Virus record (IMG/VR): IMGVR_UViG_3300009155_002539
Coordinates: 1-49,502 of that record
Origin: a virus
DNA: 49,502 nucleotides
Direction: 5' to 3' (one strand)
The stretch's first letter is position 1. Every line of letters begins with the position of its first letter. Made by a program: the position numbers and the translations under genes. This document shows positions 1 to 37,776 of this stretch, piece by piece. Below the pieces are notes generated by a model. That model did no database searches, had not been told where the DNA came from, and saw only the letters and a program-made list of their open reading frames with translations.

Positions 1-54
1 AGCAATTAAAGTTAAATTAGACTTCTAATCGGAGAATAAAAATAAAAACTATTG

Positions 55-79
55 ACCCACCTTAATTTGGTGGGTTTTT
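55..79 (+). terminator. Rho-independent terminator
   Basis: A 7-bp stem (ACCCACC at 55-61 pairing with GGTGGGT at 69-75) closes a TTAATTT loop and runs into a T tract at 75-79. This is a classic intrinsic terminator. It ends whatever transcript enters from the left and isolates the gene starting at 104. Confidence 0.85.
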
Positions 80-89
80 AGTTTTGGAA

Positions 90-100
90 TATTTATATAC
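90..100 (+). promoter_or_regulatory. Candidate late-promoter motif TATTTATATAC
   Basis: TATTTATATAC lies 3 bases before the ATG at 104, just after the terminator. The identical 11-mer recurs at 1375-1385 before the next gene. TATTTATA is the reverse complement of the T4 late box TATAAATA. If it acts as a -10 box, the transcript would start near the ATG and be leaderless. Promoter function is inferred only from recurrence. Confidence 0.4.
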
Positions 101-103
101 GAT

Positions 104-1369
104 ATGTTAAAAAGAATACCAAAGTCAGATATTAGTGTAAGGCCGTTTAAGGCATATAAAGAATGGACATTTGATGATACATCATTTCCAGCTTCTTCAT
201 CTTTAGAAATAAATGAAAGAGTTACGTTATATGATGCAGATTTTAATATACCGGATACTGAATATGCAACTATGTCATATTCATCATCCGACTATCCCAC
301 CGGTAATATTTATAAGTATTATCCAAAGTCAGTATATGGACAACTAAGAGCTCAATTTTATAATGGACAAGAAGATAATCCATTTACAAGATTGGGTGCT
401 AAAACAAATGTATACAATGATGTTGAACTAACAAAAGAAAGGTTTTTAAGTGGTTCTGCAAAAGTAATATCAATTCCACAAATATATGTTGGTGAGGGAA
501 TTAAAAAAGGTTCGGTTATTTTAACTGATAATACAAATTTAGATTCTGAATTTGCATATACGGATGATTCATTTGGTAATTTACAAGATTACAGAGATAC
601 AATTTATGTTTCTAGAATTGATATAGAAAATAAAATATTTAATTTTACCGATTTAGCTGAACATATTTATAGTGCATCATTTGAAACATTAATGGTTGGT
701 CAATTTGATATAGAAGCTCAAACGTTGGATATTATATATAATGGAGAGTTACAACCAACCATAGAATTAATTAGCTTAGATATTAACACAGGTATTGCAA
801 TTGCAGAAAATATTCCATTTTTACCAAAAGAATCACAAGGTATTAAAATTGGTAATGTATTTTATAGTCAAGGATTAATAGTATTAACAAGAGATTCTGC
901 AGAAAAGTTACAAAATGATTGGAATTTAACATTCAAATCAACTGAAACTATATATGAACATGAATATCTTCTAATTGCAAATGAAGATGAATTCAATGTT
1001 TCAACAAATCCAACAGCAGTAGTGGAAGTGGGTAGAGAAACTGGATATGTAACTGGCTCCGATGGTAAGATACATAGAACAACTACATACCCTGGTGTTA
1101 AATACATTAAGAAAAAAACAACATTAGAAAACGGAAATACAATAGATTATAGTATAGGTTCTAGATATAACACTGCAATATCGGGTGGATTTGAACAGTA
1201 TGATTATAGTTCATCATTGGATTCCACTGGTTCATTCCTTGCACCATTTATTACAACAATCGGATTATATGATGATAATTGTGATTTAGTAGCAGTAGCT
1301 AAATTACCGCAACCAATAAAATCATATCCTGATTTACCTGTAAACTTTATTGTACGATTTGATACATAA
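104..1369 (+). CDS. Putative virion (baseplate or tail) structural protein
   Basis: This 421-residue protein has no signal peptide or membrane segment and looks beta-rich, with many Ser/Thr/Tyr and short hydrophobic strands. It shows no enzyme motif. The last 40 residues (ITTIGLYDDN, LVAVAKLPQPIKSYPDLP) resemble a C-terminal pattern I associate with virion structural proteins of T4-like and jumbo phages, but this is memory of a family pattern and not an alignment. It stands alone behind a terminator and a late-motif copy, which fits a late structural gene. A baseplate or tail-tube-associated role is a guess. Start: ATG with no Shine-Dalgarno, as usual here. Confidence 0.55.
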   Translation: MLKRIPKSDISVRPFKAYKEWTFDDTSFPASSSLEINERVTLYDADFNIPDTEYATMSYSSSDYPTGNIYKYYPKSVYGQLRAQFYNGQEDNPFTRLGAKTNVYNDVELTKERFLSGSAKVISIPQIYVGEGIKKGSVILTDNTNLDSEFAYTDDSFGNLQDYRDTIYVSRIDIENKIFNFTDLAEHIYSASFETLMVGQFDIEAQTLDIIYNGELQPTIELISLDINTGIAIAENIPFLPKESQGIKIGNVFYSQGLIVLTRDSAEKLQNDWNLTFKSTETIYEHEYLLIANEDEFNVSTNPTAVVEVGRETGYVTGSDGKIHRTTTYPGVKYIKKKTTLENGNTIDYSIGSRYNTAISGGFEQYDYSSSLDSTGSFLAPFITTIGLYDDNCDLVAVAKLPQPIKSYPDLPVNFIVRFDT

Positions 1370-12136: not shown

Positions 12137-12892
12137 ATGTTACAGGATACAAGTTACATAAAGCATAATATAACAAACAATAGAGAAATAGATGAAGTTG
12201 GTGATGAGATACTTAAGAATGTTCCATATAGATGGTCTCATGGTGCAACTGATACTCATTTAGGAGACGGTTTAATTATATATTCTATTATTCAGTATAT
12301 GAGAGCAAAAGTGTGTGTTTGCCTAGGAAGTGGTGGAGGATTTATACCTAGAATTATGACACAAGCTAGAATTGATTTACATAATCAGGGAATATTTGAA
12401 GGTGATGGAAATTATAGTTGGGGAGATATAGGAACTACTTATATTGTAGATGCTATGAATGGTATTGGTGGAAAAGTAGATTGGTTTGTAGAAGAATCTT
12501 TTTTCAGAAGACAATTTTGTCCTAGAATTATTAATGATACAACTTTAAATGCATTTCATAACTATTTTGTGTTAAATGATATTAAAATTGATTATTTACA
12601 TATTGATGCTGGACATTCATATGAAAATGTAAAAGAAGATTTTGAATTATATTCTCAATTAATTTCACCAAATGGAATTATATCAATTCACGATACTGAC
12701 CCTAATTATGCTGATAAGTATATAGTTACATCCGAAGTAAAAGATAGAGGAGATTTTGAAGATTGGAGTGGACCAGTTAGATTGGTAAAAGAAATAGATT
12801 CAACTAAATGGGAATCTTTTAATTTATTTAATTTTGGTATCGTAAAAAACAAACCAGCTTCAACTGGATTAACATTGATAAGAAAAAAATGA
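12137..12892 (+). CDS. Class I SAM-dependent methyltransferase-like protein
   Basis: The 251-residue product has a glycine-rich SAM-type loop (VCLGSGGG, about residue 57) and, near residues 152-180, the IDYLHIDAGHSYENVKEDF and PNGIISIHDTD segments typical of the Methyltransf_24 group that modifies sugars and small molecules. It overlaps the next gene by 4 bases. In a glycan cluster, O- or N-methylation of a sugar is likely. The upstream gap of 26 bases is the largest in the run. An oxygenase-like relative of the cephalosporin hydroxylase group, which shares this fold, is the main alternative. Confidence 0.75.
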   Translation: MLQDTSYIKHNITNNREIDEVGDEILKNVPYRWSHGATDTHLGDGLIIYSIIQYMRAKVCVCLGSGGGFIPRIMTQARIDLHNQGIFEGDGNYSWGDIGTTYIVDAMNGIGGKVDWFVEESFFRRQFCPRIINDTTLNAFHNYFVLNDIKIDYLHIDAGHSYENVKEDFELYSQLISPNGIISIHDTDPNYADKYIVTSEVKDRGDFEDWSGPVRLVKEIDSTKWESFNLFNFGIVKNKPASTGLTLIRKK

Positions 12893-13728
12893 TAAGATTA
12901 GTTACAGTCACCGGAAGCAGAACAAACACTCTTCCTCATATGTTAAATCATTACAAAGATTTAGTTGATGAAATTTATGTTGTAGTTTATGAGTGGGAGA
13001 ATTTTTCTACATATGATTCAGTAGAAAAAATTGTTTCATATTTTCCAAATGCTAAAATAGTAAGAAGAGAGGTAAAAGAAAAATATAATTGGGAATATGT
13101 AACTCAACTATATAATGAAACAAAAATGACGCATCCTAATGATTGGTGGGTAGTTTCAGATGATGATGAGTTCCATGTTTATTCACATGATTTAAGTGAG
13201 ATAATTGCAGATTGTGAAGTAAATGGTTGGGAATTGGTTAGAGGTGGATTTATTGATAGAATTGGTATTGATGGGATTTTTCCTGAAATAAAAGATAATG
13301 TGGATATATTTAAACAATTTCCATTAGCAGGATTTTTTAGATATCCGTTATCTGGAGCATGTCCAAATAAAGTTTGTATAATGAAAGGTTATATTGAAAT
13401 AACTCCAGGACAACATTATGCAAAAATAGATGGACAAACTACGTGGAAATGGCAAGGTTGGAATCACCCATTAATTGCACCTTATCATTATTACAATGTT
13501 CAAGTTCATCATTTTAAATGGGATAGTACATGTGTTGAAAGAATTAAAGCAGTAGCAGATATCAAAAAGGATTATTCATTTTCAAACGAATATTTAAAAA
13601 TGTATCAGGCTATAAGAAGAAATAATTTTCAAATTGATATTACTAATCAAGAATTTATGATTGAAAATGATGGATTCAAAGATTATGGTCAATGGATTAA
13701 ATTATTCAAAAAAATAATATCTATATAA
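12889..13728 (+). CDS. GT-A-type glycosyltransferase-like protein
   Basis: This 279-residue protein begins with a strand-turn pattern (IRLVTVTGSRTNTLPHMLNHYKDLVDEIYVVVY) like GT2/GT92-type transferases that scan from 'I handle accounts of monologue' domains. A metal-binding acidic cluster, SDDDEF, lies near residues 90-95, as expected for a DxD motif. Later aromatic and His-rich segments (HHFKWDS, about 206-212) could shape the acceptor site. There are no membrane helices. It overlaps the methyltransferase by 4 bases and precedes the first galactosyltransferase-like gene. The substrate is unknown. Confidence in 'glycosyltransferase' is moderate because only the DxD and the fold pattern support it. 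Confidence 0.65.
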   Translation: MIRLVTVTGSRTNTLPHMLNHYKDLVDEIYVVVYEWENFSTYDSVEKIVSYFPNAKIVRREVKEKYNWEYVTQLYNETKMTHPNDWWVVSDDDEFHVYSHDLSEIIADCEVNGWELVRGGFIDRIGIDGIFPEIKDNVDIFKQFPLAGFFRYPLSGACPNKVCIMKGYIEITPGQHYAKIDGQTTWKWQGWNHPLIAPYHYYNVQVHHFKWDSTCVERIKAVADIKKDYSFSNEYLKMYQAIRRNNFQIDITNQEFMIENDGFKDYGQWIKLFKKIISI

Positions 13729-13740
13729 TATAAAAAGGTT

Positions 13741-15219
13741 ATGATTTCAGAAAAGTTAGCTATTATAGTTCCCTACCAAAATAGAGAAGAACAACTCTAT
13801 AAGTTTTTAGGACACATGGATTGGTATTTAGGGGATAAGTTTGAAAATTACACAATATACATTGTAGAACAAGAATCTCCAACATTATTTAATTATGGAG
13901 CATTATGTAATGCTGCCGTAGATGTTTTAAAAGATGAAGGGTATTCATATTTTGTATTTCAAGATATAGATTTACTTCCGCAAGAGGGTTGCGATTACTC
14001 TAGTTTAAACATTCAATACCCAACACACATCTCATCTAAAATTTTAGATATTCATAAATTCAAACCATATCCACATTATACTGGTGGTGTATTTAAAATA
14101 TCCAAAGAACATTTTGAAAAAATAAATGGATTTAGTAATGATTATTGGGGTGGTGGTTTTGAATATTTGGATTTACTTTATAGAATGAATAAAATAATTC
14201 CTGATAATTTGCCTATAATAAAATTCTTTAATAAAGATATTTTTGATTATCATAGATTCATTGACATAGTGGAAGTTGATTCAGAAATAAAAAAGAAAAT
14301 AAATTCATTTATTTGTAAAAATGGTAATAGTTTATTTATTCAACCAAATACAAAATTAGATTATGTATTTTCCGATTCGTTTACCATATCTTTTGATATT
14401 TTTGTTGATGATGACCAATCGGAAGATGGATGCATTGTTGGTAAAGAAGGATATGATTCTGGAATATTTATTAAAAATAATGAAGCAATAGTTTTTCAAC
14501 ATTGGACGGAAGATGGTGAAATAATACAAATATGGAATGATAATTCTATTCTAAAAAATAAATGGACAAATGTTACAATTAAATTAAGTACATCCACTGG
14601 TATCGCATCTATGTATTTTGATGGAAGATTGGTTAATGAAACATTTTACGACAATACAAAAAATTTAATGGATTTTGCTGGAAAAAATTTATGGATAGGT
14701 TCGTTATCGTTACGAAATAGGTTTAAAGGAAAAATTAGTAATCTATGTATTTTTGATTATGATTTGACTCAAACTGAAATAGAAATGTTGTATAGTAATA
14801 ATTACGACGCATCGTTAACAACATTTGAACCAGTTTTAAATATACCATTTAATAAATCCGTAGGTCAATTTTTTGTTGATACTCAAGAATTTAAAAGTAA
14901 TGCTAGAATTATTAAAATGGATAATTCTATACAAGGAAATGAAGAAGAACAAAAATATTCATATAAAATAAAAATGCCAGCTGAAGATTTTGGAAAATAT
15001 AAAATTTTGGAAAATTCAAATAAATTTAGTATATTAGAGAAATATTATTGGCAAGAAAAAGATGATGATATGATTGAAAATGAAAAAATATTTTTCTACG
15101 AAACAACTAAACAAAAAAGAAATTCTTTTAAATTTGGTTTAAGTTCTATAAATTATAAGTTAAAAACAAAACAAAATATAAACAATCATACACAAAAATT
15201 AATATTAAAATTAAAATAA
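13741..15219 (+). CDS. GT7 (beta-1,4-galactosyltransferase-like) with inserted LamG domain; probably inactive
   Basis: The first of three paralogues (492 aa). The N-terminal part keeps GT7 features: PYQNREEQL (11-19), FNYG (50-53), DIDLLP (75-80) and GGVFKISKEHFEKINGFSNDYWG (115-137). The acidic catalytic motif WGWGxEDDD of the family has become WGGGFEYLD (136-144). About residues 193-360 form a LamG/concanavalin-like domain (FTISFDIF, WTNVTIKLST, MYFDGRLVNE, LWIGS, GKISNLCIFDYDLT). The C-terminal part resembles the GT7 end (GLSSINYKL) but lacks the PH metal-ligand motif seen in the two paralogues. It may be a structural or binding partner of the active copies. Confidence 0.8.
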   Translation: MISEKLAIIVPYQNREEQLYKFLGHMDWYLGDKFENYTIYIVEQESPTLFNYGALCNAAVDVLKDEGYSYFVFQDIDLLPQEGCDYSSLNIQYPTHISSKILDIHKFKPYPHYTGGVFKISKEHFEKINGFSNDYWGGGFEYLDLLYRMNKIIPDNLPIIKFFNKDIFDYHRFIDIVEVDSEIKKKINSFICKNGNSLFIQPNTKLDYVFSDSFTISFDIFVDDDQSEDGCIVGKEGYDSGIFIKNNEAIVFQHWTEDGEIIQIWNDNSILKNKWTNVTIKLSTSTGIASMYFDGRLVNETFYDNTKNLMDFAGKNLWIGSLSLRNRFKGKISNLCIFDYDLTQTEIEMLYSNNYDASLTTFEPVLNIPFNKSVGQFFVDTQEFKSNARIIKMDNSIQGNEEEQKYSYKIKMPAEDFGKYKILENSNKFSILEKYYWQEKDDDMIENEKIFFYETTKQKRNSFKFGLSSINYKLKTKQNINNHTQKLILKLK

Positions 15220-15220
15220 A

Positions 15221-15517
15221 ATGGCAACAACAACAAAAACATCAGTAGAAAAACTAGAAACTACTCAATCAGAATCTCTTCTTTTAGAACAACGAAAAGT
15301 TAAAGCATTGGAAAAAATATCCAACTCTTTAGATGCATTGACAGTTTGGTTTGAAGAAATTGAAAAACAAGATTGGAGTGATAGATTACAATATTATCTA
15401 TATGAGTTTCATAATAATTCAAAAGCAATTGCAGATAATTTAGAAGCGTTAACCACTTCTTCACCTGCAGCAGTAAAAGAAATTGTAGGTAGACCTAAAA
15501 AAGATTCTGAAAAATAA
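15221..15517 (+). CDS. Small coiled-coil protein, 98 aa
   Basis: I do not recognise this protein. It is hydrophilic and mostly helical, with a predicted coiled coil across about residues 20-75 and a basic C-terminal GRPKK tail. It starts one base after the first GT7-LamG gene and its stop shares a base with the next start, so it is translated with two galactosyltransferase-like paralogues. It could be a scaffold for them or an unrelated small virion protein. The GRPKK tail resembles an AT-hook core, but a single copy proves nothing. Confidence 0.7.
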   Translation: MATTTKTSVEKLETTQSESLLLEQRKVKALEKISNSLDALTVWFEEIEKQDWSDRLQYYLYEFHNNSKAIADNLEALTTSSPAAVKEIVGRPKKDSEK

Positions 15518-16980
15518 TGAAATTAGGAATAATAGTTCCATATAAAAAAAGAGAATCTCAATTAAAATTATTCAAAAAAGAAATAACTGAATTTTTAAAT
15601 TCAAAAAATATTAATTTTGAATTAATAGTAGTTGAACAAGCAGATGATAAACCATTTAATAGAGGAAAACTATTAAATATTGGTTTTGATAATGCTAAAA
15701 AATTGGGATGCAATTATGTTGTATTTCATGACGTAGATATGCTACCCGTAAAAGCGGATTATTCATATCCAAATCATCCTGTACATTTGGCTACCAATTT
15801 TGAATTCAATCCAAATATTAAAAGAATTATATTTGATGAATATTTTGGAGGAGTAACTATGTTTCCTGTTGAAGATTTTGAAAGAATAAATGGATACTCC
15901 AATGAGTATTGGGGCTGGGGATTCGAGGATGATGATTTATTATATAGATGTAAAAAATACAACATAGGTTGTGAAAAAAAATCTATTGCAAAAAATATCA
16001 TTAATAAAAAAGGAATGTATTTTAATGGAAAGAGTTCATTTGTTGAGTGTAATAAATTAAAAGAAATTTTTGATTTTAAAACTAATAAAACAATTAGCGT
16101 TTCATTTAAATCGGATGATATTATATTAAATCCAAATAAAGAATACGACGATTTTACTATATTTTCTATTCCTGGATATGATTTAAATATAACTTATAAT
16201 TCATTTAAACGATATAAAGTAGAAGCCTGGTCCGAAAAATTAGAACCCCAATCCATAACAACCGATATTACTACAAACATATACACTACAATTGTTTTTT
16301 GTTTAGATTTTAAAAACAAAAAAATATCAATGTACCAAGATGGAAAATTTGTAGAAGAAAAACAAATTGGATTTCATCATTTAGAAGATGGTATTGAAAA
16401 ATTTAGATTGTCAAACATATATAATCATCCAGACGAAGAATCGTTTTATATTGGTTGTGGTAATCCAATAAGAACAGAAAATCCAAATTTTTTTAAAGGA
16501 ACAATAACTGATTTTGCAATATATGATGGAATACTTTCTGATTTAGAAATTCAAACATTAAATGATAATACATTAATACCATTGACAACTAATTTCAAAA
16601 AATATAAATCAGCTGATAAATTATTATGTTATTACGATTTTAATTTAATTAAAAATGAAATTTTATTTGATTTATCTATGAATGGCAATGATGGTATTAT
16701 AAATAATTGTCATTTAGTTGAAATTCAAAACATAAAAGAAGAAGAAATTATAATTCCTAAAAGAAGAAAATCATTATTCAAATTAGTACCACATAAAGAG
16801 AATGGATATGTAGACGGTGTTTGGAAAGAAAAGGGAACACGAATAAATCAAGTAAAATTTTTTAGTAATATTGCAAATGATATTTTGGAAAATGAAAAAG
16901 ACGGATTAAGTACCTGTAAATATAGAGAATTAACAAATGTAGATAAGGATAATTATCATTTTATATCAGTATTATTATAA
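15517..16980 (+). CDS. GT7 (beta-1,4-galactosyltransferase-like) with inserted LamG domain
   Basis: The 487-residue second paralogue appears catalytically intact. GT7 features: VPYKKRESQL (7-16), FNRGKLLNIG (47-56), HDVDMLP (71-77), GGVTMFPVEDFERINGYSNEYWGWGFEDDD (111-140). A LamG/concanavalin-like domain spans about 167-360. After it the GT7 end resumes: LVPH (H426, aligned with the metal-binding His of animal beta4-galactosyltransferases) and EKDGLSTCKY (460-469), comparable to the SDGLNSLTY of those enzymes. Thus the lectin-like domain interrupts the catalytic domain. Cytoplasmic; donor probably UDP-hexose. It is joined by 1-base overlaps to both neighbours. Confidence 0.85.
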   Translation: MKLGIIVPYKKRESQLKLFKKEITEFLNSKNINFELIVVEQADDKPFNRGKLLNIGFDNAKKLGCNYVVFHDVDMLPVKADYSYPNHPVHLATNFEFNPNIKRIIFDEYFGGVTMFPVEDFERINGYSNEYWGWGFEDDDLLYRCKKYNIGCEKKSIAKNIINKKGMYFNGKSSFVECNKLKEIFDFKTNKTISVSFKSDDIILNPNKEYDDFTIFSIPGYDLNITYNSFKRYKVEAWSEKLEPQSITTDITTNIYTTIVFCLDFKNKKISMYQDGKFVEEKQIGFHHLEDGIEKFRLSNIYNHPDEESFYIGCGNPIRTENPNFFKGTITDFAIYDGILSDLEIQTLNDNTLIPLTTNFKKYKSADKLLCYYDFNLIKNEILFDLSMNGNDGIINNCHLVEIQNIKEEEIIIPKRRKSLFKLVPHKENGYVDGVWKEKGTRINQVKFFSNIANDILENEKDGLSTCKYRELTNVDKDNYHFISVLL

Positions 16981-18440
16981 TGAAATTAGGAGTTTGTGTA
17001 CCATATAGAAATAGAGAGGAACATATGAACCAGTTTGTTCCTCACATTCATAAATTTTTGAATGATAGGGGAATCGAACATGCTATCTATTTAGGACACC
17101 AATGTGATGATAAATTATTCAATAGAGGTTTAATGAAAAATGTTGCTGCTAAAGCTGCATTTGATGATGGGTGTGATTATATTGTTTGGCACGATATTGA
17201 TATGGTACCTGAAGATGAATCCTGTGATTATAGTTACAATCCTGAGAACCCAAAACATTTGGCAGTAAGAATATCACAATCGGATTATAACCTCAAATAT
17301 GAGGAGTATTTTGGTGGCGCCGTATTGTTTACAAAGGAACAAGTAGAAAAAACCAATGGTTATTCAAATGATTATTGGGATTGGGGTATGGAAGATGATG
17401 ACCTTTTTTGGAGATGTCAATTAGAAGGGTATACTGATAAAAAATATATAGATGAACCAAAAATTGAAAATGTAGCTAAATATAATGGAATTGATTCGGT
17501 TACACAATTATTACCATCATCTCAATTAAGGGGATGTTTAAATGAAAATCATACAATTTCAATATTAGTAAAAGCAGAACAACAAATAGAAAAGGCACCA
17601 ATTTATTTAATAGGTGATAATGAAAGAATATTTGTGGAATATCCAATATTTAGAAAGCCTGGATTTGACTGGGGCATTTCATTTAATAATAGTAGAGCTT
17701 ATACTGCTATGATGTGGGATTCAAAAAAAAATCACATATATCAATGGATGAAGAGGTATGAAGGTGAATGGACTTGGGTAACTATGTCAGTTGATGTAAA
17801 AAATAAAAAAATGCATCTTTATTTAAATGGAAATGAAAGTGAGGCAAGAAATGGCACAGGCACACAGTCACCAATTGATTATGATAATGATTTGAAAAGA
17901 TATGGAGCTGAGCCATTTTATATAGGGCATACTCCGTCTTGGGAAAATGGAAATCCTAATAAATGGTTCAAAGGATTTGTTTCTAAAATTAAAATGTGGA
18001 ATAAATGTCTGACACAGGAAGAAATATTAGATTCATTAAATAACGATATTAATAATAAAAATTTTATTTTAAATTTAAATTTTAATAAAGTTATAAAGGA
18101 TAATTCATATTTAATGCATAAAACTTTTTCTAAAAATGTAGAATTTGTTGAGCAAGAAATAAAAATACCATCAACATCTTTACCATATAGAAGAGATGGT
18201 AAATTTTTATGTTTACCACATCAAACCGAAGGATTAATTAGTGTTGGTGGTATAGATAAATGGGCAAAGGGTGAAACAACAGCTGCAAATGAAAGAAGAT
18301 ATATTTTACAAATGCAACAAGGTGAAATAAATTATAAAAATGATGGCATGAGTAATTTAGAAGAAAAATATGAATATTTAAATAAAGAAAATATTTTAGG
18401 AATCAATAACGCTTTCCTAATAAATGTAAAATGTAAATAA
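16980..18440 (+). CDS. GT7 (beta-1,4-galactosyltransferase-like) with inserted LamG domain
   Basis: The third tandem paralogue (486 aa) also looks active. It has VPYRNREEHM (7-16), FNRG (47-50), HDIDMVP (71-77), GGAVLFTKEQVEKTNGYSNDYWDWGMEDDD (112-141). The LamG-like domain covers about 168-370 (HTISILVKA, WVTMSVDVKNKKMHLYLNG, FYIGHTPSW, GFVSKIKMWNKCLTQEE). The GT7 C-terminus resumes with CLPH (H414) and DGMSNL (455-460). It starts inside the stop of the previous gene (TAATG). Together the three genes look like a duplicated enzyme family with diverged lectin domains, as if each were tuned to a different acceptor. Confidence 0.85.
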   Translation: MKLGVCVPYRNREEHMNQFVPHIHKFLNDRGIEHAIYLGHQCDDKLFNRGLMKNVAAKAAFDDGCDYIVWHDIDMVPEDESCDYSYNPENPKHLAVRISQSDYNLKYEEYFGGAVLFTKEQVEKTNGYSNDYWDWGMEDDDLFWRCQLEGYTDKKYIDEPKIENVAKYNGIDSVTQLLPSSQLRGCLNENHTISILVKAEQQIEKAPIYLIGDNERIFVEYPIFRKPGFDWGISFNNSRAYTAMMWDSKKNHIYQWMKRYEGEWTWVTMSVDVKNKKMHLYLNGNESEARNGTGTQSPIDYDNDLKRYGAEPFYIGHTPSWENGNPNKWFKGFVSKIKMWNKCLTQEEILDSLNNDINNKNFILNLNFNKVIKDNSYLMHKTFSKNVEFVEQEIKIPSTSLPYRRDGKFLCLPHQTEGLISVGGIDKWAKGETTAANERRYILQMQQGEINYKNDGMSNLEEKYEYLNKENILGINNAFLINVKCK

Positions 18441-18441
18441 T

Positions 18442-19866
18442 ATGGCAGAAAAATACAAAATGGATTTGGAAAAACAGAATCCATTATATGTTGGTATAAA
18501 AAATGAATTAGATTCTGTTGGACCTGGAATGTGTTTAGCAAAATGGACACAGGTAACTTTATCTTTACAAATAGGCCATAACCACTCATGTCACCACCCT
18601 CGTACACATGCTATATCAACAGCAGAGATTGCACGAAACCCATCGGCACTTCACAATACAAGATATAAAAAACTTCGTAGAAAAGAAATGTTAAATGGTT
18701 CTAGACCAGTTGAATGTGATTATTGTTGGGGAGTAGAAGATAATTCGGACTTATTTTCGGATAGAATTTTTAAATCATCAGAAGATTGGTCCAGACCATA
18801 TATGCAAGAAATTAAAGCATTGGATTGGAGAGATGATTATAATCCAAAATATGTTGAAGTTGCATTTAGTAATGCATGTAATTTTAAATGTTCATATTGT
18901 TCACCGGCATACTCGTCACAATGGATGGAGGAAATACAGGAGCATGGTGCATATCCAACGCCTGATAGATTTAATGATTTACAATATTTGATTGATGAGC
19001 ATAAGATGCCTTTAAAACATTCTGAATTAAATCCATATACCGAAGCGTTTTGGAAGTGGTGGCCTGATTTATATAAAGACCTAAATACTTTTAGAATAAC
19101 TGGTGGAGAACCTTTGTTATCAAAAGATACATGGGGAGTATTGGATTATATTATTGAAAACCCAAATCCAAATAGAGAATTAAAATTAGCAATTAATTCA
19201 AATTTAGGTGCACCAGATGCATTGATTAATAAGTTAATTGAAAAAATTAAAAAAATTGAAGATGGAAACAGAGTAAAACAATTGGTAATATTTACATCAG
19301 TTGATACGTGGGGAGAACAGGCAGAATATATTAGAAATGGTTTAGAATTCAATAGATTCTGGGATAATGTAAATAAAATTATGAGCCAATGCCCGAGAGT
19401 TATTATAACATTCATGTCTACTTATAACGCTTTGAGTTTATTTAATTATAATAAACTAATTAAAGAAGTTTATAATTTAAAAGATATGTATGGTAGTTAC
19501 GATAGATATTGGAACTCTGCTGTATTTTTAGATTCATCATATTTAAGATACCCAACACACCAGACGGTTCAGGTGTTACCATATGAATTTTCTAAAAAAA
19601 TATTAGAACAAACGAAACTAATCACATACTACGCTATTCCAATTTTTGACCCAAAATATATTGGATTTTCTGATATTGAAGTTCAAAAATTAAAAAGAAT
19701 ACATGATTGGATGGTTGCACCACAAGACCCAACTCAACAAATGAAAAATAGAAATGGATTTTATCAATTTTTTAGTGAACATGATAAAAGACGCGGAACC
19801 AATTTTGTAAAAACATTCCCAGAATTAGAAGAATTTTATAATTTTTGTGGAACAATTAAAATATAA
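18442..19866 (+). CDS. Radical SAM enzyme with extra Cys-rich N-terminal region
   Basis: The 474-residue protein has the radical SAM cluster motif C146-x3-C150-x2-C153 (NACNFKCSYC) and the SAM-binding GGEP (221-224). An N-terminal region with Cys/His (MCLAKW, HSCHHP, ECDYCW, about residues 30-95) looks like an auxiliary iron-sulfur or twitch/SPASM-type site placed before the core. Reactions of this family are radical-based changes to sugars, peptides or tRNA. Placement between a GT7-LamG and a LamG gene suggests modification of a glycan or of a glycan-bearing protein. Starts one base after the stop of its neighbour. No membrane segment. Confidence 0.9.
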   Translation: MAEKYKMDLEKQNPLYVGIKNELDSVGPGMCLAKWTQVTLSLQIGHNHSCHHPRTHAISTAEIARNPSALHNTRYKKLRRKEMLNGSRPVECDYCWGVEDNSDLFSDRIFKSSEDWSRPYMQEIKALDWRDDYNPKYVEVAFSNACNFKCSYCSPAYSSQWMEEIQEHGAYPTPDRFNDLQYLIDEHKMPLKHSELNPYTEAFWKWWPDLYKDLNTFRITGGEPLLSKDTWGVLDYIIENPNPNRELKLAINSNLGAPDALINKLIEKIKKIEDGNRVKQLVIFTSVDTWGEQAEYIRNGLEFNRFWDNVNKIMSQCPRVIITFMSTYNALSLFNYNKLIKEVYNLKDMYGSYDRYWNSAVFLDSSYLRYPTHQTVQVLPYEFSKKILEQTKLITYYAIPIFDPKYIGFSDIEVQKLKRIHDWMVAPQDPTQQMKNRNGFYQFFSEHDKRRGTNFVKTFPELEEFYNFCGTIKI

Positions 19867-19871
19867 TTAAA

Positions 19872-20636
19872 ATGAGTTTACTTATAAGATACGCCGAACC
19901 TTGGATAATTTTACCAGAAAGTAGGTATGATATTAGTGATAGAAAAATTGACAAATATATGGATGAAGATTTTTCATTGTATATGCGAGTTAAAATATTT
20001 CCGGATAGGATGATTCCAAATGAAGAAGGATTTGCATTTGCAAGAAGTGGTAAACATTCTGGTATATCCTTTGTTAAATTTATAGACCAAAATGATAATG
20101 AAATTATAACAATGATGTTTACATATTGGTTTAAAGATAGTACATTTGTTCAGATAACAAAAAATTTGACAAGAGAAGAAGCAAATGAATTTATAGAAAT
20201 TGCTGTTATAAATGATGATTTAAATAAAAAATCATTTTCATTGTATGTAAATGGTGAACACATTGATACGAAGGAATATCATAACGAAAAACAATTATAT
20301 AAATTTGGAGAAATGGGTGGTGGAGGATTTTATCAATTTGGTAATGGAAACTTTGAAGTGCCATCTATTGCAATGTATTTAGAATGTGAATTTGATATGA
20401 TTTTTTTATTAAAAAAAGAATTATCATACGAAGAATTAAAAGAATTGTCGGAAAATTATAAAAATTATTTAGAATCGTTTTTAGAAGAACTAGATGTGTT
20501 GAGTAAAGATTTTCCACATAGAAAAGATTTGGCTTTTTTCTTAGATTTTAAAAATAAAAACAGATATAAAGTTTGGGAATTATCTCATAATGGAAATTAT
20601 TTATCAAAAGCAAATTTAGAAAATTTATTCTTTTAA
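19872..20636 (+). CDS. Stand-alone LamG/concanavalin-like lectin domain protein
   Basis: This 254-residue protein has the strand pattern of the LamG domains in the three GT7 fusions: DEDFSLYMRVKIFP near residue 31, a KSFSLYVNGEHIDTKEY hairpin near 122, and a DMIFLLKKELSYEELKELSE end near 173. This last element parallels the 'F-Y-D-LT-EI--L' close of LamG folds. The C-terminal 70 residues are extra and helical at first. It has no signal peptide, so it is not obviously secreted. It could bind a glycan or present an acceptor to the transferases, or be a virion lectin. The assignment rests on pattern only. Confidence 0.6.
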   Translation: MSLLIRYAEPWIILPESRYDISDRKIDKYMDEDFSLYMRVKIFPDRMIPNEEGFAFARSGKHSGISFVKFIDQNDNEIITMMFTYWFKDSTFVQITKNLTREEANEFIEIAVINDDLNKKSFSLYVNGEHIDTKEYHNEKQLYKFGEMGGGGFYQFGNGNFEVPSIAMYLECEFDMIFLLKKELSYEELKELSENYKNYLESFLEELDVLSKDFPHRKDLAFFLDFKNKNRYKVWELSHNGNYLSKANLENLFF

Positions 20637-22156: not shown

Positions 22157-22878
22157 TGAATCCAGATTTTATTTTATTTAATGGATGTAGTTTTACCGAA
22201 GGTGGAGGCCTGGAAGACCCCTATATTTTAAATCAATATGGATACAATCTTATTGAACGAAAGCCACAATATTTTGAAATAAGAGAAGAATTGAGATATT
22301 CAAAAGTATTATCTACAAAATGTAATTGTGATTACATAAATTTATCAGAATCATGTAATTCAAATGAAAATATTTTTCAAACTACATTCGATTATATACA
22401 TGAAACGGATTTATCTGAATATAAAAATAAAATTGCAATAATACAATTGACCATGCCTCAAAGAAAAACGATTTGGTGGAATGGTGTTAAATATAATTTA
22501 AATAGTGTTTTATATTCCGATAGTCCATACAACAATAATGAAGAATTTAAACCTTTATTTGATTATTATTCAAATTTTGTATTAAACATATTTGATGAAA
22601 ATGTTCAAAGTTCAATAGATAAAAAAGAAATATATTTATTAAATTCTTATTTAGTATCTAAAGGATTTAAACCATATTTCATTTTGTATGATTATTTTTT
22701 ATTAGAAAATGAAGATATTAATATTGTTAATTTTCAAGGCCATAAAAATTTAAAAAATTATATAGAAAATAATAAATTAAGAATCTCCGATGAAATTGAT
22801 TCAAATGACGGCCATTTTTCAATAAATGGACATAAAAATGTAGCAGAACTTTTATATAAAAATATAACAAATGATTAA
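22156..22878 (+). CDS. SGNH-hydrolase-like protein
   Basis: This 240-residue protein has the SGNH/GDSL block I GCSFTEG (nucleophile S12) and a C-terminal DGH (D218, H220) that would complete the Ser-Asp-His triad. A central strand (IAIIQLTMPQRKTIWW) lies where block III usually sits. SGNH enzymes in polysaccharide clusters add or remove acetyl groups on sugars. It shares its first base with the RmlC-like stop and overlaps the next gene by 8 bases. Two larger relatives occur at 25788 and 30847. Not secreted: no signal peptide is seen. Acyl transfer rather than hydrolysis is possible. Confidence 0.75.
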   Translation: MNPDFILFNGCSFTEGGGLEDPYILNQYGYNLIERKPQYFEIREELRYSKVLSTKCNCDYINLSESCNSNENIFQTTFDYIHETDLSEYKNKIAIIQLTMPQRKTIWWNGVKYNLNSVLYSDSPYNNNEEFKPLFDYYSNFVLNIFDENVQSSIDKKEIYLLNSYLVSKGFKPYFILYDYFLLENEDINIVNFQGHKNLKNYIENNKLRISDEIDSNDGHFSINGHKNVAELLYKNITND

Positions 22879-23503
22879 AAATTTAGAACAATATCCAATA
22901 GTTAGAAAAGATATTGGATGGACACCAGAAAAACTTATTCGTTTTGAAGAAAGAATTGTTGAACATTGGGAAGCAGGAAAAATCAGAGGTCCAATACACT
23001 TATCAAATGGAAACGAAGAACAATTGGTTGAGATATTCAAACGAGTTTCAGAAAATGACTGGGTATTTAGTACGTGGCGTTCTCATTACCATTGGTTATT
23101 AAAGGGTATTTCAGCAGATTACGCGGAAGCACTTATATTGGATGGTAAATCTATAACACTATGTGATATAGACGATAAATTTTACGCATCAGCAATTGTA
23201 GGAGGTACTCTATCAATTGCATTAGGTGTTGCAATGGGGATTAAACAAAAAGGTAGTGATGAAAAAGTATTTGTGTTTCTAGGTGATATGTCGTTTGAAA
23301 GTGGTATATTCTATGAAGTTCACAAATATGCGAAAAACTTTGATTTACCAATTGTATTTGTGGTAGAAGATAATGGAGTATCAACATATACACCAACCGA
23401 AGCAACTTGGAATACAAAAAGAGAAGTTCCATCGGATGTAATATATTATACATATAAATCAAAATTCCCACATTACGGGACTGGTAAGTGGATAGCTTTT
23501 TAA
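22871..23503 (+). CDS. Thiamine-diphosphate enzyme, TPP-binding (alpha) half, short
   Basis: This 210-residue protein resembles E1-alpha/transketolase N-terminal domains. STWRSHYHWLLKG (about 68-80) parallels the usual 'YRgHg-lakG' segment, and the cofactor/Mg motif is GDM (138-140) followed 25 residues on by EDN (166-168), a variant of GDG...NN. Typical E1-alpha proteins are about 330 residues, and this one stops soon after the motif, with no trace of the rest before the next gene at 23514. The partner pyrimidine domain is probably the gene at 28983. Likely chemistry: transfer of a two-carbon unit to a sugar or decarboxylation of an oxoacid. The start ATG overlaps the SGNH gene by 8 bases. 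Confidence 0.8.
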   Translation: MIKNLEQYPIVRKDIGWTPEKLIRFEERIVEHWEAGKIRGPIHLSNGNEEQLVEIFKRVSENDWVFSTWRSHYHWLLKGISADYAEALILDGKSITLCDIDDKFYASAIVGGTLSIALGVAMGIKQKGSDEKVFVFLGDMSFESGIFYEVHKYAKNFDLPIVFVVEDNGVSTYTPTEATWNTKREVPSDVIYYTYKSKFPHYGTGKWIAF

Positions 23504-33357: not shown

Positions 33358-36300
33358 ATGAATTTAATAAATGAAGCAAACAAACCAAAAGTAACTAAAA
33401 CAATAGTTGTTTATGCGGGTAGATTTCAGCCTTTTCATAAAGGACACTATGCTGCATATCAACATTTAGTATCTGAATTTGGTTCCGGTAATGTTTATAT
33501 TGCAACATCGAATGATACATCTTCGGATAAATCTCCATTTTCATTTAATGAAAAGAAAGAAATTGCAACTAAAATGTTTGGAGTACCATCGACTAAATTT
33601 GTAAAAGTTAGCAATCCATACAGACCTATGGAACTACTTAAAAAATTTGATGGCAAAGATACACAATATATTGCTGCCGTAGGTGAAAAGGATGCTGATA
33701 GATTAAATGGTAAATATTTTAAACCATATAACGGGAAAGCCGGATATGGTTATGATGAAATTGGTTACACATATCCAATACCTGGAGAAGAAAATCCAAT
33801 AAGTGGGACACAAGTTAGAAAAGGATTGGGAAGTGATGATAAAGAAAAAGCTAAAAAGTTTTTTCTTAAAGCGTATCCAAAATTCGATAAAGATATTTTT
33901 AAAATGATAACATCAAAATTAAATGAAGGATTTCCAGGTGGTATAGGAGTTGGATTAGATTTACCAGGTGGATATATTAACGGAGCTCCAACAGGTTCAG
34001 TAGATGAAACAAATAATACACAACCTTCATCAAAAATGAGACCAGAACCACATCCTACAAGACATGAAACGGAGCATCCATCAGATGAACCAGATTGGCA
34101 TAAAAAGAATGAACCATATGACCCTATTTCAGAAATAGTAGAAAGATATATTACAAATGAAATGTTTGAAGAATTTGCTAAACAATATTTTGGTGAAGCA
34201 CCTAATAAAGCATTAGATAGAGATATAACATATACAAATTCAAAAGGAAAATCAACTAAAATTAAAGCTAGAGATGCTTTAAGATTACCAAAAGAACATC
34301 CTGCACATATTCAAGCAGCAAAAATAGTTGGACCATCGGATGCACCGGCAAATGAACCAAAACCAAAAGAACAACCTGGAAAAGCAGCAACTCAAGCAGC
34401 AAAACCAGCTGAACCTGGCCAACCAACAAAAAAAGGTCAAACACAACAAGGGAAAATAGATAAGGAAACTGGAACATCTGCTCCTGGAGAAAAAGGACAA
34501 GAACAAGGCCCCCCACCTGAACAAAAATTAGGAGGTGGTGAATTAAAATCCGATGCTGAAAAATCTAATATAGATAAAATTAAAGAAAAGGCTGCAGAAA
34601 TAGCTAAAGAAGCAAAAAGAAAATGTGAAGATATAATCAAAGATTTTTCAGAAGAAGAACAACATGAAGTACACGAAACAACCAACCCACATTCCGAAAC
34701 AAGAAAAGAGTGGACTCAAAAAATTGGTGATTTTATTTCAAATCTTCCAAAAAATATAGCAGAAAAAGTATATGAAGTTGTAAAACAAAAATACCACCAA
34801 CTAAAAAATACAGGTAGAGGCCTAAAATCTTTGGCATTATCAACAATGTATACCGGTAAACCACAATTTGGTTGGTTTAAAGATAAAGATGGACAATACA
34901 AATATAGTGAGCATGAGGAAAAAAGACAAAGAAAAGCGTGTATTTCAACTCTTAAAGATGTAGCGGTAATAGGGGCATCGGTTGTAGTAGGTGCAGCAAT
35001 TGCAGGAGCAAGTGGAGCAGCAGTAGCTGGAAAGGGTATTGGTGGTATTATCCACGCTGCGACTCATGGTGCAGCTCATTCGGTATCAAGCGTTGGTGGA
35101 TTTTCAGCACATGCAGCGATTGATTTCGCAAAACATTGCGGACTAGAAGCAGTTGGATTGGCAGCGGGTGAGGGACATGTCGAAGCACAAGTTGGTGCAG
35201 GCGTTGCTGGGTTAGGACATATGGCGCTTAAAGGTATGGGATTAATGGAAGAAATGGATGAAACAAAGGCACATGGTGATATGTTTATAAAATTAGTTGC
35301 AGATGTTGTTAAAAAAATGGAAACATTTGAACCAAATCCTCAACAATTATTAAAAACATTAGAATCTTATAAAAAACAAAAAGAAGTTTCAAAATTACAA
35401 AATATTACAAAAGGATTAAATGAAAACATTTCAGAAACTAAACAAAATTCAATTCAACATTTTGTAGAATTTGCAACTAAACGATTAAAATTAAAAGAAA
35501 CGCCAAAAGTTAATTTAATTACAGGTAGAGATTTTGCAGAAGTAAAAACAAGTTTAGGTGGGTATAATCCAGATGATAAATCTATATATGTAGCAATCGA
35601 AGGTAGATTAACCGCTGATATTTGTAGAACTCTTGCACATGAAATGGTTCATAGAAAGCAAGATGAAATGGGATTAGTTAGAAATGTTAATAAAGATGGA
35701 GCGGATGGTTCACCAATAGAAAATCAAGCACATGCAGTTGCAGGAATTCTAATGAGAGAATATGGTAGAGTTAATAAACAAATTTATCAAGAAGCACACA
35801 CAGCATATAATCACGTACCTGTAAGTAAGGCGGATAAGGATTTTACAAATAATCACAAATTCGATATAGGAATAAAAGCAGATGATGATACGATTGATTT
35901 TGATGGCAAAGGTGGATATCAAAAGGTGGAAGATATTAATGTAGATGTTGATAAGGGAGATACCGTCTTAATGGGAAAATTTAAAAACAAAAAAGTTGTT
36001 GTTAAGGATTTTGGAAAAGATGACCATGGAATGCCAACAATAAATGGTAAAGTAGCAACTACATTTAGAATGGATAAGAAAGGGCAGAATATATACGAAA
36101 TGGGAAGTAAAGATGTCCATTTTAAAAATGTTGTAAAGTATTTTGATAAAGGAGGACCTAACATTAAAAAACAAGTTAGTTTAGTAGTTTGTGGAAGTAA
36201 AAAACCAAATAGAGATGAAATAGTTGGAAGTTTAAGGGATATGGGATATGAAGAAATCACATCAATTGAAAAAAGATTAGGTATAGAAGATTTATTTGAA

Positions 36301-37776
36301 AAAAAAAATCTAAAAGAAGTTAGTTTAAACACATCCGAAGATGGTTCACCTGACGGTGGATATGTTCCAAAAGGTAAAAAAAGAGTATTAGACGGACAAG
36401 ATGGTATAAACAAACAAGAAGATTGGTATACAAATGGTGGATATACACAAACCGAATTTCCAACAGCAGATGCGATATTTGGAGATGAAGATGGTGAAGA
36501 AAGAACTATTAGATATACAATTAAAAATCTTCCTGATGTTGATTATGTAGAAACGGATTTTATTAAAGAAGGTTTATTAATGGAAGGTGGTGCATATGGT
36601 CATATGAGCCATCCATTTGATGATATGGATTTAACTTTTGGTGATTTAAAAGATATTATTACAAAAGCATTAGAAGGAGATTTAGGTGTAGTAAGAGAAA
36701 AAACTGATGGACAGGCTTTGGCAATAAGTTGGAAAAGTGGTAGATTAATCGCAGCTAGAAATAAAGGAAATTTAGCAAACGCTGGAGCAAATGCAATGGG
36801 TATCGAAGATGTTGCATCAAAGTTTGCAGGTAGAGGTGGTTTAACTGATGCATATAATTTTGCTATGAGAGATTTATCAGCTGCAATACAATCTCTTTCG
36901 GAAACTCAAAGAAAAAAGATATTTAACGAAGGAAAATGTTTTATGAATTTGGAAGTAATCTGGCCTACATCGGTAAATGTTATTCCTTACGGACAAGCTT
37001 TATTAATATTTCATAATACAACTTGTTATGATGAGAAAGGAAACGCAATTGGTGCAGACCAGGGTACAGCAAGAACATTAGCTGGTATGATTAAACAAGT
37101 TAATGCAGATGTTCAATCTAAATATACAATTCAAGGCCCGCCGGTAACTGAAATACCAAAATCATCAGATTTGGCATCTAAAAAAGGAAAATATCTTTCA
37201 AAATTAAATAAAGTACAAAATGAATTTGGTTTAAAAGATAGTGATAATGTTTCAGTATATCATCAAACTTGGTGGGAAAATTTTATTGATACAAAAGCAC
37301 CATCAAAGGTTGATAAAATGACAAAAGAATCATTAGTTAGAAGATGGGCGTTTGGAGATAAATCATTTCGTTTAAATACAATATCAAATCCTAAATTACA
37401 GGATTGGGCGGTTGAAAACGATAAAGTAAATGTTATAAAACAACAAAAAGAAAATATCAAACCATTTGAAGAAATATTTTTAGGAGTTGGTGCAGATGTA
37501 TTAGAATTTGTTGGAAGTGTATTGACTGTTCATCCAGATAAAGCCATTCGTTCAATGAAAGAGAAATTAAAATCAGTTGCAAGTCAGGTAAGAGATTCTG
37601 GAAGTCCGGCCCAAATACAAAAATTAAAACAAGAATTAAATAGATTAAATCAATTGGGTGGTATTGATAAAATAGTTGCAAATGAAGGATTAGTATTTTT
37701 TTATAATGGTAACACATATAAACTTACTGGTACATTTGCACCTCTAAATCAAATACTTGGTATTTTTTACGAATAA
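33358..37776 (+). CDS. Giant multidomain protein: HIGH nucleotidyltransferase, zincin peptidase, ligase-type nucleotidyltransferase
   Basis: 1472 residues in one frame. Residues 15-190 are an NMN/cytidylyltransferase-like domain: GRFQPFHKGH (21-30, H27 and H30) and ISGTQVR (148-154). A Pro/Lys/Glu/Gln-rich linker spans about 210-430, and an Ala/Gly-rich hydrophobic segment about 535-640. A zincin motif HEMVH (761-765) with a possible third ligand E788 (ENQAHA) follows. The C-terminus (about 1085-1472) has ligase-superfamily motifs: REKTDG (K1115 nucleophile, D1117, G1118), the AARNKGN motif, MNLEVIWP, EGLVFFYNG (E1443) and YKLTG (K1455). The order I-III-IV-V matches Rnl2-type ligases, with a long insertion between III and IV. 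Virion or RNA/DNA-repair role unknown. Confidence 0.8.
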   Translation: MNLINEANKPKVTKTIVVYAGRFQPFHKGHYAAYQHLVSEFGSGNVYIATSNDTSSDKSPFSFNEKKEIATKMFGVPSTKFVKVSNPYRPMELLKKFDGKDTQYIAAVGEKDADRLNGKYFKPYNGKAGYGYDEIGYTYPIPGEENPISGTQVRKGLGSDDKEKAKKFFLKAYPKFDKDIFKMITSKLNEGFPGGIGVGLDLPGGYINGAPTGSVDETNNTQPSSKMRPEPHPTRHETEHPSDEPDWHKKNEPYDPISEIVERYITNEMFEEFAKQYFGEAPNKALDRDITYTNSKGKSTKIKARDALRLPKEHPAHIQAAKIVGPSDAPANEPKPKEQPGKAATQAAKPAEPGQPTKKGQTQQGKIDKETGTSAPGEKGQEQGPPPEQKLGGGELKSDAEKSNIDKIKEKAAEIAKEAKRKCEDIIKDFSEEEQHEVHETTNPHSETRKEWTQKIGDFISNLPKNIAEKVYEVVKQKYHQLKNTGRGLKSLALSTMYTGKPQFGWFKDKDGQYKYSEHEEKRQRKACISTLKDVAVIGASVVVGAAIAGASGAAVAGKGIGGIIHAATHGAAHSVSSVGGFSAHAAIDFAKHCGLEAVGLAAGEGHVEAQVGAGVAGLGHMALKGMGLMEEMDETKAHGDMFIKLVADVVKKMETFEPNPQQLLKTLESYKKQKEVSKLQNITKGLNENISETKQNSIQHFVEFATKRLKLKETPKVNLITGRDFAEVKTSLGGYNPDDKSIYVAIEGRLTADICRTLAHEMVHRKQDEMGLVRNVNKDGADGSPIENQAHAVAGILMREYGRVNKQIYQEAHTAYNHVPVSKADKDFTNNHKFDIGIKADDDTIDFDGKGGYQKVEDINVDVDKGDTVLMGKFKNKKVVVKDFGKDDHGMPTINGKVATTFRMDKKGQNIYEMGSKDVHFKNVVKYFDKGGPNIKKQVSLVVCGSKKPNRDEIVGSLRDMGYEEITSIEKRLGIEDLFEKKNLKEVSLNTSEDGSPDGGYVPKGKKRVLDGQDGINKQEDWYTNGGYTQTEFPTADAIFGDEDGEERTIRYTIKNLPDVDYVETDFIKEGLLMEGGAYGHMSHPFDDMDLTFGDLKDIITKALEGDLGVVREKTDGQALAISWKSGRLIAARNKGNLANAGANAMGIEDVASKFAGRGGLTDAYNFAMRDLSAAIQSLSETQRKKIFNEGKCFMNLEVIWPTSVNVIPYGQALLIFHNTTCYDEKGNAIGADQGTARTLAGMIKQVNADVQSKYTIQGPPVTEIPKSSDLASKKGKYLSKLNKVQNEFGLKDSDNVSVYHQTWWENFIDTKAPSKVDKMTKESLVRRWAFGDKSFRLNTISNPKLQDWAVENDKVNVIKQQKENIKPFEEIFLGVGADVLEFVGSVLTVHPDKAIRSMKEKLKSVASQVRDSGSPAQIQKLKQELNRLNQLGGIDKIVANEGLVFFYNGNTYKLTGTFAPLNQILGIFYE

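Follow-up and report, generated by a model that had tools for sequence, protein, structure and literature searches.

GT7-type glycosyltransferases of a T4-like phage with a LamG-type domain inside the catalytic domain

Introduction

In lactose synthase, which consists of the beta-1,4-galactosyltransferase B4GalT1 and alpha-lactalbumin (1nf5), a second domain sits beside the GT7 acceptor site and resets acceptor choice. Other glycosyltransferases carry a lectin domain in the same chain; in the ppGalNAc-transferases and in MGAT4A/GnT-IVa, this lectin is attached outside the catalytic domain. The ppGalNAc-transferases (family GT27) combine a GT-A domain with a ricin-type lectin, MGAT4A/GnT-IVa combines a GT-A domain with a lectin domain, and these lectins are reported to modulate substrate choice or activity (PMC4432651; PMC9296478). 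In a survey of GT-A enzymes, hypervariable regions were tied to acceptor specificity, and the C-terminal tails (HV3) were found to carry acceptor determinants (PMC7185993).

Here, we describe two adjoining phage genes that encode GT7 proteins with an internal LamG domain. The window, i.e. the whole stretch of DNA that was analysed, comprises 49,502 nucleotides of the IMG/VR virus record IMGVR_UViG_3300009155_002539, and this 49.5-kb record encodes a T4-type terminase, portal protein (gp20) and major capsid protein (gp23). Protein B has 487 aa (positions 15517–16980) and protein C has 486 aa (16980–18440), and the last base of the B stop codon is the first base of the C open reading frame (position 16980). 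The genes for the GT7-LamG proteins and their conserved neighbours, with the features located in them below, lie on the plus strand.

Results

Domain architecture of proteins B and C

Pfam searches placed Glyco_transf_7N, Glyco_transf_7C and Laminin_G_3 in this order along both chains, with all matches above the curated cut-offs (E-values of 9.2e-20, 5.1e-19 and 1.2e-6 in B, and of 9.6e-18, 5.3e-20 and 1.9e-11 in C). The region of the EDDD motif is the part covered by the Glyco_transf_7C model, and it lies in the N-terminal half, before the LamG domain. Both GT7 models are also matched above cut-off by a third protein of the window, A. Membership in the LamG/concanavalin-like lectin superfamily is indicated by Laminin_G_3 matches above cut-off in A, B and C, and by a fold match in B and C.

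In protein B, the N-terminal GT7 part spans residues 1–156 (15517–15984), as delimited by both GT7 models and by B4GalT matches over residues 2–152. It contains the donor- and metal-binding DVD motif (D72–D74, 15730–15738), which is present in 103 of 104 B-clade members, the remaining one being gapped, and the catalytic-base motif WGWGFEDDD (residues 132–140, 15910–15936), which was placed by the B-clade alignment. The LamG insert follows at residues ~157–413 (15985–16755), with Laminin_G_3 over residues 209–346 and structural matches to the LamG module of PAPP-A (Z 22.5) and to PTX3 (Z 19.6). The C-terminal GT7 part (residues 414–487, 16756–16977), which was defined by a two-segment HMM match and by superposition on 1tvy to the last residue, contains P414, a VPH motif with the metal-binding histidine H426 (C-His) and a DGLS motif.

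Protein C is organised in the same way. Its N-terminal GT7 part (residues 1–156, 16980–17447; Pfam and phmmer) carries a DID motif (17193–17201), found in all 104 C-clade members, and the motif WDWGMEDDD (residues 133–141, 17376–17402; C-clade alignment). The LamG insert (residues ~157–401, 17448–18182) was identified by Laminin_G_3, by a PAPP-A match over residues 161–396 (Z 21.8) and by conservation, and includes a highly conserved patch at residues 191–268. The C-terminal GT7 part (residues 402–486, 18183–18437), with P402, an LPH motif containing C-His H414, and DGMS, was located by a 1tvy superposition with a range of 1..486 and by the two-segment HMM.

Structural models of the split fold

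AlphaFold2 models were built from alignments of 70 and 74 relatives and are confident (C: pLDDT 93.3, pTM 0.85; B: pLDDT 94.6, pTM 0.90). The top structural match of both was bovine B4GalT1 (1tvy), with 213 residues of B aligned over the range 1..487 (Z 26.6, rmsd 2.5) and 215 residues of C over the range 1..486 (Z 27.9, rmsd 1.9). Since the 1tvy chain has 272 residues and the models have ~487, a match from first to last residue is possible solely by skipping the middle. In the models, the middle segments separately matched the PAPP-A LamG module (B, ~162–411, Z 22.5; C, ~161–396, Z 21.8) and pentraxins (Z ~18–20). Foldseek alone aligned B4GalT to only the first ~150 residues of both models, because a local aligner cannot bridge the insert, whereas the second structural aligner does.

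Sequence searches reach less far. Divergence in the stretch after the LamG domain is too great for phmmer to extend into it, and a C-terminal profile (A3) compared with PDB sequences retrieved B4GalT1 at E ~0.05, below a chance-level match to an arenavirus-type glycoprotein (E 0.014). This weak result means that sequence search alone is no proof of the C-terminal part, and a two-segment HMM with controls, together with the superposition, was used instead.

Compact relatives and the insertion point

Compact GT7 proteins of 214–285 aa that lack LamG were found on viral contigs and also in records of cellular origin (Halieaceae, Planctomycetota twice, Simkania). An HMM of this empty site was built from 25 compact proteins and has 221 positions. 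It was matched as two collinear pieces by 619 of 641 complete interrupted ORF records; the pieces mostly join at model position ~153–161 and are separated by a median of 244 extra residues. Of the 330 split proteins that remained after removal of duplicates, 307 had the C-terminal piece at the expected place in the model. Reversing or shuffling the tails left 0/330 C-terminal matches in each control, which rules out chance as the source of the C-terminal GT7 match. The distance from the EDDD glutamate to C-His is 28 and 27 residues in two compact proteins (L261 and L162, respectively) versus 276 in C and 289 in B. An invariant proline (P402 in C, P414 in B) stands 12 residues ahead of C-His in both, which is the spacing of Pro335 and His347 in bovine B4GalT1.

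The insert is located between two strands, the one following the EDDD (xED) helix and the one with the metal-binding C-His, a site that we read as the root of the GT-A C-terminal tail, corresponding to the HV3 region. Homology between the inserts of B and C is detectable, so that, judged from the sequences, a single insertion event appears likelier than two. In a tree, the LamG-bearing sequences fall on one side of one branch, which has a support of 0.

These results bear on a first-pass annotation of this DNA, which had described two proteins starting like GT7 enzymes, with a LamG domain inserted in a catalytic domain that resumes afterwards, and had named structure prediction and alignment against GT7 as the check. 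The motifs that it listed (DVD/DID, WGWGFEDDD/WDWGMEDDD, VPH/LPH, DGLS/DGMS) are all present, in ORFs at the coordinates that it gave, and Pfam agrees. The insertion is borne out by the first-to-last superposition on 1tvy and by the empty-site comparison, and the models contain neither a GT domain that is complete before LamG nor an unrelated C-terminal piece. Its assignment of the insert to the LamG type also stands, but the length of about 200 residues needs correction, the insert being nearer 245–257. We are thus practically certain that B and C each consist of a GT7 catalytic domain split by a whole LamG/pentraxin-type domain.

Family size, conservation and selection

In IMG/VR, three scans with queries taken from the window yielded 174, 74 and 505 confirmed stretches, the 505 being N-domain stretches from one scan, and a fourth scan with compact proteins as queries gave 272 stretches. 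The full-length relatives first collected comprised 252 distinct proteins, with 104 in the B clade, 104 in the C clade and 14 in the A clade. The EDDD glutamate, the first and last aspartates of this motif and C-His are present in 104/104 members of each of the B and C clades, and so is DxD, barring one gapped B row. The second aspartate is found in 104/104 C-clade and 91/104 B-clade members (N in 12, T in 1). The equivalent of Tyr289 of bovine B4GalT1, which is the Gal/GalNAc gate of that enzyme, is tyrosine in 93/93 (C) and 99/100 (B) sequences, and an aromatic residue (Tyr/Phe) occupies the position that we align with the Phe360 acceptor pocket of B4GalT1.

Compared with their closest relatives, B and C have dN/dS values of 0.053 and 0.066, respectively, indicating purifying selection, and the LamG part (0.03–0.07) is constrained to an equally low value as the GT part. 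Mean identities in clades B/C are 60/71% for the N-terminal GT part, 33/47% for LamG and 39/56% for the C-terminal GT part. The three parts evolve in step (correlations of 0.73–0.88), which argues that LamG is not freely swapped, and LamG is retained in every one of the 640 complete ORF records (duplicates included) from the B/C/A group. Clade C contains a near-invariant polar and aromatic patch at residues 191–268 (E220-YPI-R225 ... SxNNSRAY ... YxWxKRYxxxWxW), whose conservation is similar to that of much of the GT core, with the remaining LamG variable; the LamG of clade B has few near-invariant residues. Another GT7-LamG gene lies directly upstream of C, mostly overlapping or abutting, in 77 of the 79 contigs with room for it.

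A degenerate third copy

The first-pass annotation had counted two tandem proteins; both are there, but it had overlooked a third protein of the same architecture upstream. Protein A (13741–15219) matches the GT7N, LamG and GT7C models with E-values of 1.9e-16, 2.8e-15 and 2.1e-11, respectively. Among the catalytic residues of GT7 (DxD, W(G)WGxEDDD and the C-terminal metal-binding histidine), A has lost EDD and the histidine: its motif columns read WGGGFEYLD, with Asn425 at the C-His position. In the A clade (n=14), the EDD motif is mostly lost and C-His is always lost. The copy in the window has a dN/dS of 0.075 against its closest relative, indicating purifying selection. Loss of these residues under continued selection suggests that A is probably a non-catalytic member (a pseudo-glycosyltransferase) with a retained role, and at least one member thus probably uses the architecture without this catalysis.

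Gene neighbourhood

The genes for A, B and C lie in a cassette whose members recur across 152 loci, which were drawn partly from the same contigs and are not independent genome counts. Conserved neighbours are a Methyltransf_24 protein (12137–12892; Pfam; 135/152 loci), a GT2-like glycosyltransferase (12889–13728; Pfam match below cut-off; 140/152 loci) and a twitch-domain radical SAM protein (18442–19866; NF033640, 2.6e-105; 146/152 loci). The radical SAM gene is followed by a gene for a stand-alone LamG-like protein (19872–20636), recognised by a weak Laminin_G_3 match below cut-off (0.00099). Very divergent genes of this type, encoding 220–280 aa, are located at the equivalent place in many loci, where a LamG HMM gave hits (e.g. 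L051:7834-8556 and L054:8927-9709); together with sugar epimerases, they are rarer cassette members among the 152 loci. By phmmer, neither the LamG domain of A nor the stand-alone LamG has detectable sequence similarity to the LamG domains in B and C. Upstream in the window, there is a gene for a long tail-fibre-like protein that contains a peptidase S74 chaperone domain. The cassette genes fit a phage-specified glycan, located on the virion or the host surface; hints to the acceptor are absent from most neighbouring genes.

Elsewhere in the window, positions 33358–37776 encode a 1472-aa protein that starts with a cytidylyltransferase-like domain and has no other Pfam match, and a protein resembling TPP-dependent E1-dehydrogenase/DXP-synthase (22871–23503) is encoded amid the phage sugar genes.

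Distribution

The first-pass annotation knew of no described phage enzyme of this kind, and this agrees with our searches. Among 50,697 cultured-phage records, no significant or convincing relative was found, the N-domain alone giving E-values of 0.3–0.9. Word searches of the open-access literature returned no description of a GT7-LamG architecture, and an interrupted GT7 is absent among the solved structures returned as matches.

Full-length GT7-LamG proteins also occur in bacterial bins. One is encoded next to an LRR-kinase gene and a GT2 gene (L159, bacterium bin_47), and it has a counterpart in another genome (G005:C331:451-1881). This context and the counterpart suggest that the architecture probably exists outside phages as well. 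LamG-GT7 matches were further found in Flavobacteriales and Pelagibacterales MAGs, which may reflect phage contigs assigned to the wrong bin. Six T4-portal matches are present in the Flavobacteriales bin (MAG NAT55), whose contigs L156 and L157 are probably phage contigs binned with the bacterium; no T4-portal matches were found in the Pelagibacterales bin.

Discussion

Proposed function and alternative explanations

Based on the fixed catalytic residues, B and C are likely to be active GT7-type transferases. By analogy with GT7 biochemistry, they would catalyse a metal-dependent (Mn2+), inverting transfer from a UDP donor, probably UDP-galactose, which is favoured because nearly all members have tyrosine at the equivalent of B4GalT1 Tyr289. 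The LamG domain would hold the acceptor, which may be a glycan or else a protein of the phage or host surface, beside the active site, thus coupling recognition to transfer within one chain; the first-pass annotation had likewise inferred a self-guided transferase whose lectin domain would position the acceptor. B and C might act in succession, or on two positions, in building a single glycan specified by the phage, along with the products of the neighbouring GT2-like, methyltransferase and radical SAM genes. We lean modestly towards this explanation as a whole, that is, LamG-split enzymes whose LamG holds the acceptor and which act as a pair on one glycan. That LamG contributes to acceptor choice is, taken by itself, an evenly balanced proposition. 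The best hint for a LamG that presents the acceptor is the near-invariant patch of clade C, while the far lower conservation of LamG than of the GT part in clade B (33% versus 60% mean identity) speaks against acceptor guidance. The ligands of LamG domains are often proteins and not sugars, and "lectin" is therefore to be read as a label for the fold.

The main rival explanation sees LamG as a targeting or assembly module, which would tether the transferase to the host surface, to some component of the virion or to the cassette's other LamG proteins, thereby forming a complex, and would have no part in choosing the acceptor sugar. PAPP-A and pentraxins, the best structural matches of the insert, bind proteins or oligomerise. 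Several LamG proteins, including the stand-alone one, adjoin in one cassette, the window has a tail-fibre-like gene upstream, and the catalytically degenerate LamG-GT7 protein A is under purifying selection, all of which would suit such a role. However, targeting creates no need for a position inside the catalytic domain, terminal fusion being the usual solution, and the LamG domains of A and of the stand-alone protein lack phmmer-detectable similarity to those of B and C. We regard this explanation as rather unlikely.

Much less credible is a near-neutral relic, in which a LamG domain landed in a permissive loop and is tolerated with little function. It would accord with an insertion point in a variable region of the fold (PMC7185993) and with a LamG that is less conserved than the N-terminal GT part, but it is at odds with LamG dN/dS values of 0.03–0.07, as low as in the GT part, with retention of LamG in all 640 complete records (duplicates included) and with the near-invariant patch of clade C. 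It is also very improbable that B and C are inactive transferases serving as lectins only, as is suspected for A. Protein A does demonstrate that the architecture can persist despite a lost EDD motif and C-His, yet the B and C clades show little or no variation at the key catalytic and metal-binding positions, and the blocks that form the catalytic site rank among the best-conserved stretches of the proteins.

Beyond the acceptor-holding function preferred for B and C, we tentatively propose a wider reading, which we rate as possible but somewhat short of an even chance. The proteins would represent a widespread phage GT7 lineage in which the internal LamG next to the active site is a built-in acceptor reader, so that glycan is written only on LamG-recognised targets and the paired B and C write successive residues on the virion or host surface. 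The architecture could thereby tie target recognition to sugar transfer, and might offer a natural template from which transferases with a chosen acceptor specificity could be made. Compact and interrupted GT7 proteins form natural before-and-after pairs, which makes the effect of the insert directly testable. With 505 N-domain stretches found in a single scan, enzymes of the beta-1,4-galactosyltransferase type are a common feature of uncultured T4-like aquatic phages, although the 50,697 cultured-phage records searched yielded no convincing relative; this points to a phage glycan pathway that is hidden from isolates.

Comparison with known systems

The animal beta-1,4-galactosyltransferases (CAZy GT7; B4GalT1, B4GalT7) share with B and C the whole catalytic-domain fold (Z 26–28), the DxD and WGWGxEDDD motifs, C-His and the DGL/M block, at ~30% identity over aligned residues. 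Unlike the animal enzymes, B and C contain ~245–257 extra LamG residues between the EDDD helix and C-His, have no membrane anchor or stem, and are found in T4-like phages. Their nearest insert-free relatives are the short uninterrupted GT7 proteins of uncultured viruses and bacteria (L257-L282, L313, L315, L319; L160-L163), which have the same GT7 domain in 214–285 aa and a glutamate-to-histidine spacing of 27–28 (two examples) versus 276–289 in B/C.

The inserts adopt the same fold as LamG/pentraxin domains such as the PAPP-A LamG module, PTX3 and CRP (Z ~18–22.5), with ~9–16% identity, but in B and C this domain sits inside an enzyme. In lactose synthase, the partner of the GT7 domain is a separate, unrelated and reversibly bound protein, whereas the LamG of B and C belongs to the same chain. 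Compared with the externally appended lectins of the ppGalNAc-transferases and MGAT4A/GnT-IVa, the insert of B and C is LamG/pentraxin-like and lies inside the catalytic domain, such that a recognition-type domain is nested within a GT-A fold between the catalytic base and a metal ligand. B and C are thus members of GT7 by sequence and fold, and it is their internal arrangement that is new.
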